Assembly: GCA_017453205.1 (NCBI GenBank)
Contig: JAFTKO010000005.1
Span: 1 to 40,112, forward strand
DNA: 40,112 nt
Reading direction: 5' to 3'
From: Clostridia bacterium
GTDB lineage: Bacteria; Bacillota; Clostridia; Oscillospirales; CAG-272
Numbering within the stretch: the stretch's first letter is position 1; every line of letters starts with the position of its first letter. Below the pieces are notes generated by a model, which ran no database searches, was not told the DNA's origin, and saw only the letters and a program-made list of their open reading frames with translations. Below are positions 3,277 to 35,482 of this stretch, piece after piece. The position numbers and the translations under genes were made by a program.

Positions 3277-3309
3277 TCTGTTAAAACGGCGGTGGAAAGC
3301 CGTTCTGCT

Positions 3310-3478
3310 CAATGGAAAGACTCCTTCCGTCAAAGGCTTACGGCTCCTCCTTGGGGGAGCTGTCGCGAAGCGACTGAGGGAGTCCGCAATGCAAAGTTAC
3401 TTTTTTGAAAGAACTCCTTCCGGCTCGCGGGGCTCGCCACCTCCCTCAAGAGGGAGGCTAAAGTAACTTTCCGTTGGC
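3310..3478 (+). repeat. GAGGGAG-type intergenic repeat, copy 1
   Basis: This fills the gap between malQ and the radical SAM gene (3277-3532). It contains GTCGCGAAGCGAC, a self-complementary core followed by TGAGGGAGTC, then GCAAAGTTACTTTTTTGAAAG, then CTCCCTCAAGAGGGAGGC (a hairpin). The same modules recur at 21530, 26170, 30175 and 35166. No ORF or clear promoter is seen inside it. Confidence 0.7.
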
Positions 3479-3532
3479 AGGATAGCAATACTTGTTACAA
3501 GCTCCCACAAAAATACAAAGAAAGGAGCCGCT

Positions 3533-4921
3533 ATGAGCATCCAAAACAAACTGGCACAGTATCGGGAATGGAAAAGCGGTGTCAAGCACTGCACGTTCAA
3601 TCCCGAGGGACCCGGCGTGGTGCGCATCCATCTCATCCCGCCAAAATTCCGATGGTTTGGCAACGCACCGTACATCGTCATCCTCAACGGCTATTATCTT
3701 TTGCCGTTGGGGTATTCATGGGCGGTCATGCTTTCGTTCTTTATGAGCGAGGTGAACCGTTTTGACGGCTGTCCCATCGGTGACAAGGACGCAGACAGTA
3801 TCGTGGAGAACACCCTCAAACATACGCGTCGCGTCTATCCGTCGACAAGCTGCGAAACGCTTCGCGAGGATTTGGAAACCATGCTCGGCGTCCTGTTTGC
3901 CGTGGCAAAGGGCGAGGATCCCAATGCCGAGATCGAGCGCCTTTCGATCCGCGCCTATGCGCGCAACATGACGGCGCCGCATCGTGTGGATTTGATGGTC
4001 AGCGCCATGACCGACGCGCACGGTACATGGCAGTGCAACCAAAAATGCCTGTTTTGCTACGCGGCAGGGCAGAGCTACGCCAAAACGCGCGAGTTGACCA
4101 CGCGGGAGTGGAAAGAAGCGATCGACCGTTTGCGCGACGCGGGGGTTCCGATGCTGACCTTTACGGGCGGTGAGCCGACCCTGCGCGCCGACCTTGCCGA
4201 ACTAATCGGTTACAGCAAATGGTTCGTCACACGCCTCAATACCAACGGTGTCGCTTTGACGCCCACACTGGTTGAGGAACTGAAGCAAGCCAGCCTTGAC
4301 AGCGTACAGATCACGCTTTACGCGGCGGATGAGACGATCCACAACGAGCTTGTGGGCGGCAATCACTTTGCCGACACGCTCAAAGGCATTCAAAACGCCG
4401 TGCGCGCGGGGCTGGATGTCAGCGTCAACACCCCGCTTTGCAAAAAGAACGCCGATTACCTCGCAACGCTGAAGCTGCTGAACGGGCTTGGCGTGCGCTT
4501 TGTAACCGTCAGCGGCTTGATCTGCACGGGCATGGCGGGGGTCAACCACGCGCAATACGACCTTTGCGAGGACGAGCTGGTTGCGATCTTGCGCAACGCC
4601 AAGCGTTTTTGCGGAGAACACGGCATGGAGATCGACTTTACTTCACCCGGACTTGTCGCCAAGGAAAAGCTGGAGGAGCTTTCCCTCAATGTTCCCTCCT
4701 GCGGGGCGGCGCTTTCCAACATGGCAATCGCGCCCGACGGTACCGTGGTGCCATGCCAAAGCTGGCTGACTGCCGACGCGGGGCTTGGCAACATTCTTAC
4801 CGATCCCTTTGAGAAGATTTGGAAGCACAAAAACTGCGTCACGCTCCGCAAAATGAGCGATGCGGAGGCGCTTTCCTGTCCTTTTCGCAAGGGGCAAAAG
4901 GAGGTACACCATGGCTCGTAA
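3533..4921 (+). CDS. Radical SAM protein with SPASM-like C-terminus, candidate peptide maturase
   Basis: The 462-aa protein has the radical SAM cluster motif CX3CX2C (Cys168, Cys172, Cys175) in a WQCNQKCLFCYAAG context, and the SAM-binding TGGEP motif at 211-215. The C-terminal part carries Cys390, Cys408, Cys435 and Cys449 around a PDGTVVPCQSW motif, as in SPASM/twitch enzymes that hold auxiliary FeS clusters and often modify peptides. The first 160 residues are an unrecognised domain, partly helical, which could serve as a substrate-recognition module; that is inference. The start is ATG at 3533, with AAAGGAG 8 nt upstream. The gene overlaps the next by 11 nt, and the next gene's AGGAGGT lies inside it, so the two are translationally coupled. 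The alternating Cys-Ala tail of the neighbour is the obvious candidate substrate. The exact reaction is unknown. Confidence 0.85.
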   Translation: MSIQNKLAQYREWKSGVKHCTFNPEGPGVVRIHLIPPKFRWFGNAPYIVILNGYYLLPLGYSWAVMLSFFMSEVNRFDGCPIGDKDADSIVENTLKHTRRVYPSTSCETLREDLETMLGVLFAVAKGEDPNAEIERLSIRAYARNMTAPHRVDLMVSAMTDAHGTWQCNQKCLFCYAAGQSYAKTRELTTREWKEAIDRLRDAGVPMLTFTGGEPTLRADLAELIGYSKWFVTRLNTNGVALTPTLVEELKQASLDSVQITLYAADETIHNELVGGNHFADTLKGIQNAVRAGLDVSVNTPLCKKNADYLATLKLLNGLGVRFVTVSGLICTGMAGVNHAQYDLCEDELVAILRNAKRFCGEHGMEIDFTSPGLVAKEKLEELSLNVPSCGAALSNMAIAPDGTVVPCQSWLTADAGLGNILTDPFEKIWKHKNCVTLRKMSDAEALSCPFRKGQKEVHHGS

Positions 4922-5972
4922 AAAAGTTTATGAGGATCCTTATTCTGAGGCGACGATCAAAAAGAAGCGCCGTTTTCCCGTGCTTAATTCGATGCTTTTG
5001 GGGCTGTTGGTCATTTTGCAGATCTGCTTGATCCTGCTTGCCGTTTTTGGCGAGGAGTCCGAGCCGCAGGACGTGATCAAGGAATATGAGATCACGGTCG
5101 AGCCGTGCGAGAACGGCACACTGGATATTACGTATTCGTTTGTGTGGCAAGCCTTGGACACGTCGGAGGACTTGACGTGGGTCGAGATCGGCATGGCGAA
5201 TGAGCATTTTGTTGCAAAAACGGTCTCGAATACGATCAGCGCGGTCGAAAAATACACGGACGGCGACTATGTGTCTTTGCAGATCGACTTCAAACGCGCT
5301 TACCAAGGCGGCGAAACATTGGAGTTTTCCTTTACGGTCAACCAAAGTGCCATGCTTTGCAAGGATGGGGACGGTTATTTTTATGAGTTTGTCCCGGGAT
5401 GGTTCAATGCCACACCTGTGGAGCACTATACTTTTCGTTGGAAGGATGCCGACGGCTTGATCACCTCCAACGCCCAAAGGGAAAAAGGCGGCTATCTGAT
5501 TTGGGAGGGTGTGATGGATTGCGGTACGTATGTGCTGATGAATGTCGGCTACAATGCTGCGGCATTTGACGGTGCCGCCACCGTGTCGTATACCCCCTTT
5601 GATGGCAGCGGCGTGACCGACGTGCTTGCCGATGAGCGTATGGCGGGTGGAGTATTTTGCGTTATCCTCGCGCTTGTGCTCGTCATTCCCGAGGTCTACA
5701 TCGTGGACAGCTTTGTTTCCTATGACCGCGGCAGAGGCTTTCTCCGCGGCTACGGCTACCACATCCACACCTACGGACATGTCAATCCGCATTATCGCAA
5801 AGAACAGCAAAAACGCTCCGGAGGCGCGGGGCGCGGAGGCTTTTCGGGCGGCGGGTGCGCCTGTGCGTGTGCTTGTGCCTGTGCCGGCGGCGGTCGCGCG
5901 GGGTGCAGTCAAAAGGATACCTATCAAAAAAGCTCCGTGCAGAAAAGTACAGAGCCCGAGAGAGAACCGTAA
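4911..5972 (+). CDS. Two-span membrane protein with Cys-Ala repeat tail, candidate radical SAM substrate
   Basis: The start chosen is ATG at 4911, with AGGAGGT 6 nt upstream; it gives 353 aa. A basic N-terminus precedes membrane segment 1 (about residues 24-46). A beta-rich, probably extracellular domain follows (about 50-243), then membrane segment 2 (about 245-268). A cytoplasmic tail rich in Gly, Arg and aromatic residues ends in CACACACACA (316-325), GGGRAG, Cys332 and SQKD. The Cys and Ala codons vary synonymously (TGC/TGT; GCC/GCG/GCT), so the repeat is not a simple DNA slippage product. The external domain loosely resembles DUF2207-like proteins, from memory and unverified. Coupling to the upstream radical SAM gene suggests the tail is modified, for example by thioether or other Cys crosslinks; this is inference. 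Metal binding by the unmodified cysteines is the main alternative. Confidence 0.85.
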   Translation: MARKKVYEDPYSEATIKKKRRFPVLNSMLLGLLVILQICLILLAVFGEESEPQDVIKEYEITVEPCENGTLDITYSFVWQALDTSEDLTWVEIGMANEHFVAKTVSNTISAVEKYTDGDYVSLQIDFKRAYQGGETLEFSFTVNQSAMLCKDGDGYFYEFVPGWFNATPVEHYTFRWKDADGLITSNAQREKGGYLIWEGVMDCGTYVLMNVGYNAAAFDGAATVSYTPFDGSGVTDVLADERMAGGVFCVILALVLVIPEVYIVDSFVSYDRGRGFLRGYGYHIHTYGHVNPHYRKEQQKRSGGAGRGGFSGGGCACACACACAGGGRAGCSQKDTYQKSSVQKSTEPEREP

Positions 5973-8050: not shown

Positions 8051-8069
8051 TTTACAAAAAGGACGTTTT

Positions 8070-8510
8070 ATGAAGAAGAAAAATTACAGGAGCGACGGGA
8101 GAGCGGCTTTGGTTGAGTTCCTTTCCCAAAATCCCGACTGCCAATTCACCACCGAGGAGCTTTGTTTGGCGGTCAACGGGAGCGAGACCGAGGGGCGGAG
8201 CAGTGTCTACCGCCATTTGACACAGCTTTGCGAGGACGAGACCGTGCGAAAGTTCCGCAATGAGGCACGCAAATGCGCGGTCTATCAATATATCGGAAAA
8301 AATTGTGACTGCGGCAACCACTTTCACGAAAAGTGTACGCGATGCGGGCGCCTGCGTCACCTTGATTGCAGTGACTCGGCGGCGTTTGCCGAGCATTTGC
8401 TGTTGGTGCACGGCTTTGCGGTTGATCGCGGACAGTCGATCCTGTACGGGCTTTGCGCCGATTGCCGCGCCGCCGAGAAGGGAGGTGCGCGTGATGGAGC
8501 ACTTTCTTGA
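8070..8510 (+). CDS. Fur-family transcriptional regulator
   Basis: The 146-aa protein has an N-terminal winged helix (about residues 10-75; SSVYRHLTQLCED is the recognition-helix region). A metal-binding half follows, with HFHEKCTRCGRL and a second Cys pair, CADC, near the end, giving the two structural zinc CXXC knuckles. Fur, Zur, PerR and Mur cannot be separated by eye. ATG at 8070 is chosen over an in-frame TTG at 8034, because that one lies inside the operator. The gene overlaps the next by 17 nt. Regulation of the downstream permease and of itself through the dyad at 8034 is the likely role; export of the sensed metal would make physiological sense. Confidence 0.9.
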   Translation: MKKKNYRSDGRAALVEFLSQNPDCQFTTEELCLAVNGSETEGRSSVYRHLTQLCEDETVRKFRNEARKCAVYQYIGKNCDCGNHFHEKCTRCGRLRHLDCSDSAAFAEHLLLVHGFAVDRGQSILYGLCADCRAAEKGGARDGALS

Positions 8511-9357
8511 GATCCTTTCCCACACACTGCTCGATACGTTCAAGCTGGTACCGTTTCTGTTTTTGACCTATCTGCTGATGGAATTTCTCGAGCACAAATC
8601 GGGTAACGCCGCCGAGAATTTGTTGCGGCGTTCGGGCAAGGTCGGTCCGCTTTTGGGCGGCTTGCTGGGTGTGGTTCCGCAGTGCGGCTTTTCCGCTGCC
8701 GCGTCGGGGCTTTACAGCGGACGCGTCATCACCGCAGGGACGCTGTTGGCGGTCTTTCTCTCCACCTCGGATGAGATGCTCCCCATCATGATCTCCCACG
8801 GCGCCCCCGCAGGCGAGGTGTTCAAGATCCTTGGTATCAAGCTGGCGGTTGCCGTGGCGGTCGGATTTTTGGTGGACGCTGTCGCGCGGCTTTATCACCG
8901 AAAGTGGGTTGCAGAGGCGCAGGAGCCGCAGATCGAAGCTTTTTGCGAGCGTGAGCATTGCGACTGTCACGACCATTTTGCGCTGTCGGCGCTCAAGCAT
9001 ACGCTGTCGGTCACGTTGTTCATCCTCATCGTCACTTTTGCGCTCAATTTGATAATCCACGGGGTAGGGGAGGACAAGCTTGCGGAATTTGTTCTCGACC
9101 GTCCCGTGATCGGCAACGTGTTGGCTGCGCTTGTGGGACTGATCCCCAACTGCGCCTCGTCGGTGGTGCTGACCGAGCTTTATCTCGGCGGCATTCTTTC
9201 TCTCGGCTGTGTGCTATCGGGATTGTTGGTCAACGCGGGCATCGGTATTGCCATTCTGTTTCGTAACAATCGCCCCGTGCGCGATTCATTCCGCATCGTC
9301 GGCATTTTGTGGCTTGTCGGTGCCTTGACGGGTATTTTGATCGATTTGATATTTTAG
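8494..9357 (+). CDS. Putative heavy-metal or arsenic exporter, ArsP_2-like permease
   Basis: The 287-aa integral membrane protein has two related halves, each with a proline- and cysteine-bearing motif in a membrane segment: GVVPQCGFSAAASGLY and GLIPNCASSVVLTELY. This matches the family annotated as putative 10-TM heavy-metal exporter or putative manganese transporter (PF11449). The loop between the halves is rich in metal ligands (CEREHCDCHDHF). ATG at 8494 is preceded by GGAGGT; the gene starts 17 nt before the regulator gene ends, so translation is probably coupled. The substrate is unknown. The Fur-family partner points to a divalent metal rather than arsenite. Confidence 0.8.
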   Translation: MEHFLEILSHTLLDTFKLVPFLFLTYLLMEFLEHKSGNAAENLLRRSGKVGPLLGGLLGVVPQCGFSAAASGLYSGRVITAGTLLAVFLSTSDEMLPIMISHGAPAGEVFKILGIKLAVAVAVGFLVDAVARLYHRKWVAEAQEPQIEAFCEREHCDCHDHFALSALKHTLSVTLFILIVTFALNLIIHGVGEDKLAEFVLDRPVIGNVLAALVGLIPNCASSVVLTELYLGGILSLGCVLSGLLVNAGIGIAILFRNNRPVRDSFRIVGILWLVGALTGILIDLIF

Positions 9358-21529: not shown

Positions 21530-21650
21530 GTAAAGCTGTTTTTTGAAAGGACTCCTTCCACCGCAAGCGCCACAGTCGTCAAGACGACTTCACGCTGTTG
21601 TGAAGCGACTGAGGGAGTTGACCATGGGCAAATTTATTTTTTTGTGAAAG
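21530..21650 (+). repeat. GAGGGAG-type intergenic repeat, copy 2 (degenerate)
   Basis: It contains TTTTTTGAAAGGACTCCTTCC, then GCGCCACAGTCGTCAAGACGAC (a small hairpin, GTCGTC-AA-GACGAC), then GAAGCGACTGAGGGAGT. It is related to the copies at 26170 and 35166 but rearranged. Confidence 0.55.
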
Positions 21651-26164: not shown

Positions 26165-26410
26165 GGCCCCTTGCCCCGAAAGCAAAGTTGCTTTTTTGAA
26201 AAGACTCCCTCCGTCTCGCGTTGCTCGCAACCGTAAAGTCGCCTTGGCGACTGTGGCGCTTGCGCCTTTCCTCTAAGTAGGGAGGCAAAAAGTGACTTTC
26301 CCATAATAGGCATACTTTTTTTGGAACGCATGTAACCTTAGGCGCCCTCTCGAGGGAGCTGTCGCGAAGCGACTGAGGGAGTCCTCAATGCAAAGTTACT
26401 TTAAAAAACG
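26165..26410 (+). repeat. GAGGGAG-type intergenic repeat, copy 3 (full length)
   Basis: A unit of about 240 bp, similar over its whole length to 35160-35400. Order of modules: GCAAAGTTGCTTTTTTGAAA, ACTCCCTCCGTCTCGCG, AAGTCGCC-TT-GGCGACT hairpin, GGCGC-TT-GCGCC hairpin, GGGAGG, a variable stretch, then CCCTC-TCGA-GGGAG, GTCGCGAAGCGAC and TGAGGGAGTC. No ORF is seen. It is part of the gene-free stretch 25734-26797. Confidence 0.7.
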
Positions 26411-26424
26411 CCTTATACAGCCAT

Positions 26425-35159: not shown

Positions 35160-35400
35160 GGTTTTGCTCCGAGAGCAAAGTTACTTTTTTAAAAGGACTC
35201 CCTCCGTCTCGCGTTACTCGCCACCGTAAAGTCGCCTTGGCGACTGTGGCGCTTGCGCCTTTCCTCTAAGAGAGAGACAAAACGTGATTTGACCAAAACA
35301 AGCATACATTTTTGAATGTATGTAACTTTAGGCTCCCTCAAGAGGGAGCTGTCGCGAAGTGACTGAGGGAGTTCCCAATGAAAAAGTTACTTTTTTGAAA
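35160..35400 (+). repeat. GAGGGAG-type intergenic repeat, copy 5 (full length)
   Basis: It matches 26165-26410 module by module: GCAAAGTTACTTTTTT, ACTCCCTCCGTCTCGCG, AAGTCGCC-TT-GGCGACT, GGCGC-TT-GCGCC, a variable part, CTCCCTC-AA-GAGGGAG, GTCGCGAAGTGAC and TGAGGGAGT. The C-to-T change in the last palindrome leaves a G-T pair. Confidence 0.7.
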
Positions 35401-35482
35401 GCACAAGAAAGGACAAAAAATCGTCTCTTTGCGGCGAAGGCAAAAAATATTCCATTTTTTAAATAAAAAATTTGACAGATTG

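Follow-up and report, generated by a model that had tools for sequence, protein, structure and literature searches.

Small peptides are the substrates for which radical S-adenosylmethionine (SAM) maturases are best known. Systems for ribosomally synthesised and post-translationally modified peptides (RiPPs) act on a short precursor consisting of a leader and a core, and their clusters commonly, but not universally, encode a protease or peptide exporter. The window analysed here, the whole stretch of 40,112 nucleotides from a Clostridia bacterium with relatives in animal guts (GenBank assembly GCA_017453205.1, contig JAFTKO010000005.1), instead encodes a radical SAM enzyme next to a 353-residue membrane protein whose C-terminal tail carries a (Cys-Ala)5-GGGRAG-Cys segment, and all measured homologues of this partner have at least 308 residues. 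We consider it likely that the two genes form a dedicated modification system, in which the enzyme cross-links a resident membrane protein in its cytosolic tail, with sactionine bonds to alanine as the likeliest product.

Several described systems share individual features with this locus. The radical SAM/SPASM enzyme QhpD adds thioether bonds to a resident protein, a subunit of quinohemoprotein amine dehydrogenase, but its target is a small enzyme subunit, unlike a membrane-protein tail. The ACGX target is a short Cys/Ala/Gly repeat paired with a SPASM enzyme; with the ACGX model TIGR04340, the enzyme of one homologous locus (L064) scores 58.7 bits versus a cut-off of 400. SkfB, AlbA and the ruminococcin C enzymes share the radical SAM barrel and the auxiliary-cluster end with the window enzyme, and their N-terminal RiPP recognition element (RRE) has a putative counterpart in its N-terminal domain. 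However, the substrates of sactisynthases with an N-terminal RRE are short peptides, whereas the membrane proteins paired with the enzyme here have 308 to 691 residues, the longest of them being fused to the next gene. Ruminococcin C is described as containing S-Calpha bonds to alanine (PMC8188230). For enteropeptin, a thioether between neighbouring residues is described, closing a six-membered thiomorpholine ring with the acceptor before the cysteine (PMC12395415). Enteropeptin has a single ring in a small peptide, whereas the Ala-Cys neighbours of the window tail would permit a series of such rings. In the closest published idea found, MNIO enzymes are proposed to act on TIGR04222 membrane proteins whose C-termini are of low-complexity Gly/Ser/Cys sequence (PMC12452194). 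As presented there, it involves another enzyme superfamily, another protein family, a looser association and tails predicted to be periplasmic; furthermore, the TIGR04222 domain was detected in none of 14 tail proteins at E values up to 0.1. The papers searched, which excluded subscription articles and preprints, yielded no account of the enzyme-tail pair, and the combination of radical SAM with DUF2207 (the family type of the partner, see below), the amino-acid repeat or ACGX was not found there either; the motif itself turned up in a single unrelated paper, probably as a nucleotide string.

Linkage of the enzyme and tail genes

The tail-protein ATG lies at position 4911 and the enzyme stop codon at 4919-4921, and the two genes therefore overlap by 11 nucleotides, in agreement with the original prediction; an AGGAGG sequence (4899-4904) is located six bases before the ATG. 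The same arrangement of enzyme and tail protein as neighbours recurs in the genomes surveyed, which are mostly drafts. Four loci (L010-L013) were found when genome contigs were scanned with the enzyme; three of them come from the colon of goat, sheep and yak and the fourth from a Gemmiger genome, and the tail protein adjoins in all four. A tail-protein search of 295 genomes of the order identified five genomes, four of which were recovered by a profile of the enzyme N-terminus, while the contig of the fifth (G290) breaks off within the tail protein. In 398 genomes of the phylum, a DNA pattern for CACACAGG matched 10 and the reversed control pattern none. All 10 matches are situated, as judged by eye, toward the C-terminal end of an open reading frame (ORF) of the same layout, which extends past the tail in three cases. 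The enzyme profile was found in 11 of the 398 genomes, nine of them in common with the CACACAGG pattern. In G306, the one genome with the tail pattern alone, the next gene downstream is a radical SAM gene of a more divergent kind, and in the two enzyme-only genomes (G523, G635) a tail-protein gene adjoins and is cut by the contig end.

Taking all sources together, the tail protein is the next gene in 21 of 21 enzyme loci (G000, G116, G234, G277, G343, G381, G447, G473, G523, G547, G615, G635, G656, G674, G687, G688, L010-L013 and MT837216.1). In 18 of these the tail can be read, in G523 it can be read partly, and in G635 and G687 it cannot; contig ends or runs of N cut G523, G635 and G687 among the enzyme loci and G290 among the tail loci. 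Conversely, a radical SAM gene adjoins 19 of 20 tail proteins (the 18 readable ones and G306), and the twentieth, G290, is cut by the contig end; the contrary pattern, tails mostly lacking a linked radical SAM gene, was not seen. Five genomes from the class of a second clade (G498, G416, G570, G295 and G594) lack the tail protein, and all five also lack the enzyme. The distances among enzymes and among tail proteins are correlated (r 0.94, Mantel p 1e-4, 14 pairs), a relationship driven in good part by two deep clades. Because the enzyme and tail genes co-occur so strictly, the tail very probably undergoes chemical rewiring after synthesis.

One of the 21 loci, MT837216.1, is a GenBank "Bacteriophage sp." record from human faeces, of which L139 (1-7415) carries the enzyme-tail pair; it was reached via the tail protein, and its enzyme was recognised by eye. 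Its gene content, also named by eye, is that of a bacterial contig, and a phage identity was rejected. No plasmid matched the tail protein. A pattern scan of viral contigs returned 30 stretches, in 28 of which the motif lies in an ORF of at least 30 residues, and a radical SAM-like ORF was present in none of the 30. Most of these matches read as low-complexity or unrelated frames, one (L036, described below) is a genuine look-alike, and a viral origin was discarded. A second pattern match in G473 (L130, C10:63067) lies on the strand opposite a Gln/Ala-rich ORF and was dismissed as a chance look-alike.

The membrane protein, its tail and the radical SAM enzyme

The tail protein consists of a basic N-terminal segment, a transmembrane helix (residues 24-46), a beta domain (54-215), a second transmembrane helix (238-273) and a disordered tail, which is predicted to lie on the cytosolic side of the membrane. 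The Gly/Ser-rich C-terminus of DUF2207 proteins is described as intracellular (PMC10457818). The tail protein of L064 passes the DUF2207 (PF09972) cut-off of 24.4 bits with 26.5 bits; that of L065 reaches 19.0 bits, the window protein remains below at 12.4 bits, and those of L062, L010 and L012 also fail. Judged by its sequence, the window protein is a divergent DUF2207-type protein, which, together with the RRE-like N-terminal domain of the enzyme, adds to the original prediction. With the tail proteins, NCBIfam models gave nothing beyond chance-level matches.

The window tail reads CACACACACA-GGGRAG-C, in the context GGFSGGG-(CA)5-GGGRAG-C-SQKDTY. Its cysteine and alanine codons vary (TGC GCC TGT GCG TGT GCT TGT GCC TGT GCC, 5856-5885), and the run is therefore not a simple DNA repeat; this variation and the reversed-pattern control rule out an origin by chance or DNA repetition. 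Each tail contains 6 to 10 cysteines (14 of the 20 tails), and the single residues between them are alanine in 66 of 68 cases (14 tails). Longer tails have extra blocks (CACVS, CASSS, CHCVS) on the N-terminal side, and the stretch beyond the last cysteine varies in length. Conservation within the protein is highest in the tail, with a mean column identity of 90% versus 46% for the body and with C316, C318-A325, G326, G327, G331 and C332 invariant in the alignment of 14 tail proteins (13 and 16 enzymes were used in the enzyme analyses). Across 19 tails, the ten codons of CACACACAGG showed 1027 synonymous and 0 nonsynonymous pairwise differences; the original prediction had read synonymous codon variation as a sign of selection on the protein. 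As 11 of the 19 tails were chosen by motif or given, the fair set comprises the eight found via the enzyme or the body (L010-L013, G277, G116, G234 and G290), and the CACACACAGG stretch is likewise identical in all eight.

Ordinary DUF2207 genes occur at 42 places in 38 of 199 phylum genomes, and 30 of these places, mostly the better-scoring ones, were read as a control with flanks of about 1.5 kb. Their tails are Gly-rich (e.g., GGGFSGGGGGGGGG) with at most one cysteine in the last 60 residues in all 30, and the fetched flanks contained no radical SAM-like ORF in any of the 30. As the ordinary DUF2207 tails that were read are poly-Gly and Cys-poor, the Cys-Ala run takes the poly-Gly position in proteins with an enzyme of their own. 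Three genomes (G343, G381 and G473) encode both the tail system and an ordinary DUF2207 gene. One second-clade operon (L055) contains a LemA gene, and similar genes were recognised by eye in L054, L057, L059 and L061. In L058, L059 and L060, the tail reads on in frame through a hydrophobic segment into a TPM-like domain, which resembles a fusion to the next operon gene; the TPM-like gene of the second clade was assigned by eye and had no Pfam match at 0.1.

The window enzyme matches the Pfam families Radical_SAM (89 bits) and SPASM (36.3 bits, cut-off 21.5), and its CX3CX2C motif (C168-NQK-C172-LF-C175) has all three cysteines invariant among 16 homologues. The original prediction of this motif and of four C-terminal cysteines in a SPASM-like context held for the motif and the count (C390, C408, C434 and C449), but not for a full SPASM motif. 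Among the 16 homologues only C390, C408 and C449 are invariant, with a CX12GX4C-type pair and one later cysteine conserved in the alignment; in the window clade this end is truncated and Twitch-like. Most second-clade enzymes additionally contain CX2CX5CX3C. In the AlphaFold2 model, an RRE-like domain is followed by the radical SAM barrel and the Twitch/SPASM end. The RRE-like domain comprises modelled strands at residues 18-22, 30-35, 47-51, 55-59 and 151-155 and helices at 61-77, 84-101, 107-125 and 139-143. The order of elements is nearly the same as in the SkfB RRE, in which three strands precede the helices compared with four here (PMC6231123). The fold-match aligned ranges begin at model residues 30 (SkfB) and 20 (SuiB).

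The sactisynthase SkfB is the nearest solved relative by sequence and also ranks top by fold, in a tie. Scores with the curated models lie far under their cut-offs: the window enzyme scores 64.2 bits with rSAM_skfB (cut-off 300) and 60.2 bits with StsB (cut-off 625), enzyme homologues score up to 70.5 bits with AlbA (cut-off 850), and for four enzymes no NCBIfam model exceeded its cut-off among the best 25 of 72, 53, 51 and 48 families. A profile of the enzyme N-terminus matched no solved chain up to E 10. A defence-system identity was rejected, as the matches were to viperin-type enzymes only and confined to the radical SAM barrel.

Proposed modification and alternative explanations

We propose that the RRE-like domain would dock the enzyme, within the cytosol, onto the partner membrane protein near the tail, where the radical SAM centre could abstract a hydrogen atom from tail residues and thereby allow cysteine sulfur to bond to carbon. 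Joining the sulfur to the alpha-carbon of alanine would yield a sactionine-type thioether with the loss of 2 Da per bond, and the Ala-Cys-Ala-Cys run would permit links between neighbours or over longer spans. The product would remain in the membrane, with a stiff, cross-linked and thiol-poor cytosolic cap replacing the poly-Gly tail of ordinary DUF2207 proteins. The tail is highly likely to be the substrate of the enzyme, and cross-links are probably formed in it; the chances that these are S-Calpha bonds to alanine stand about even. The modified tail may function in envelope stress, metal or redox sensing. A bolder version, in which every cysteine of the run is joined to a neighbouring alanine and (Cys-Ala)n becomes a covalently stapled cytosolic rod, an enteropeptin-like ring ladder on a resident protein, is rather unlikely.

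Several observations weigh against a dedicated cross-linking system. By fold, the lead of SkfB falls within the tie margin, SuiB being tied with it, and the non-RiPP enzymes BlsE and MoaA likewise match the window enzyme by sequence. Only three C-terminal cysteines are conserved in the window clade. The RRE call depends on a model of moderate confidence (mean predicted local distance difference test score, pLDDT, 77.6; five sequences) together with the aligned ranges, no Pfam RRE-type family matched any of 13 enzyme-family members, and model residues 160-184 around the radical SAM motif have pLDDT values below 50. Furthermore, no leader sequence could be named in the tail protein. Finally, a contig from a viral collection (L036 5856-6152, minus strand; L144 1-294) encodes a partial 98-residue ORF with GGGGGGGCACACAGGGR at its end; the 10,294 bases (L144) on one side contain no radical SAM-like ORF, and the other (upstream) side is cut by the contig end. 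This look-alike is a different protein with the last cysteine missing and was left out of the count of 20 tails.

The enzyme could also modify the tail without forming thioether cross-links, for example by epimerisation, C-C bonds or an oxidised Cys, Gly or Arg product, leaving most thiols free. The superfamily is diverse in its reactions, and SuiB, described as an amino acid cross-linker and no sactisynthase (PMC6231123), is the enzyme that ties with SkfB by fold. GGGRAGC is complete in the window-clade tails. In other clades, however, its arginine is replaced by glycine or shifted, whereas the cysteines and alanines of the run are the most invariant positions, and a sactisynthase is nearest by sequence; this alternative is improbable. 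Still less probable is a metal or Fe-S site, i.e., a metallothionein-like sensor on which the enzyme acts indirectly, for example by tuning or loading. The number of cysteines per tail and the nearby genes for a FUR-family regulator and a putative heavy-metal exporter would fit such a site, and bufferins, which are modified Cys peptides, chelate copper (PMC12452194). But metal binding alone would presumably not require invariant alanines between the cysteines, and it leaves unexplained why a radical SAM enzyme is so strictly paired with the tail. A third alternative, in which the membrane protein serves as an oversized RiPP precursor whose modified C-terminal peptide is cleaved and exported, is very improbable: the tail is C-terminal like RiPP cores and variable in length after its last cysteine, but no protease or peptide-exporter family was matched by the nine neighbouring window proteins, of which two had no Pfam match of any kind, LemA occurs in the second-clade operon(s), and the body residues are conserved as a folded membrane domain.

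Genomic surroundings and significance

The gene pair has a gene for a 4-alpha-glucanotransferase on one side and a convergent one for a Na/Pi cotransporter on the other (Table 1). The inverted repeat after the tail-gene stop codon is possibly a two-way terminator; it was absent from the output of a simple terminator scan. Approximately 2 kb downstream of the pair lie two overlapping genes (8067-9354), one encoding a FUR-family regulator and the other an ArsP_2-type putative heavy-metal exporter. Immediately 5' of the enzyme gene, positions 3305-3490 belong to a dispersed repeat family with 61 matching stretches in the window's own genome, counting this one, other members within the window lying near 21594-21644, 26179-26414 and 35175-35404. 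No Rfam family reached its gathering score in the whole window (1-40112).

Table 1. Features of the enzyme-tail locus, with positions in the window.
Feature	Position	Strand	Basis
Radical SAM enzyme gene, 462 residues	3533..4921	+	Pfam, nearest solved relative, alignment of 16 homologues
RRE-like N-terminal domain of the enzyme, residues 18-155	3584..3997	+	AlphaFold2 model
Membrane (tail) protein gene, 353 residues	4911..5972	+	Translation, AlphaFold2 model, 14-member alignment
(Cys-Ala)5-GGGRAG-Cys segment, residues 316-332, proposed modified region	5856..5906	+	Sequence, alignment
Perfect inverted repeat, 21 nucleotides, 6-nucleotide loop	5973..6020	unstranded	Between the tail gene and the convergent Na/Pi cotransporter gene

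Strict pairing, across distant clades, between a radical SAM enzyme and a resident membrane protein's tail would show that RiPP-type chemistry can build permanent protein parts. If the stapled rod were correct, it would represent a permanent component, structural or sensory, of a DUF2207/LemA assembly in the envelope and not a secreted product, spanning Clostridia and other members of the window's phylum. As a simple repeat, the tail would also be a substrate on which the choice of acceptor residues by these enzymes could be studied, and the pair would provide a handle on the role of DUF2207/LemA proteins.
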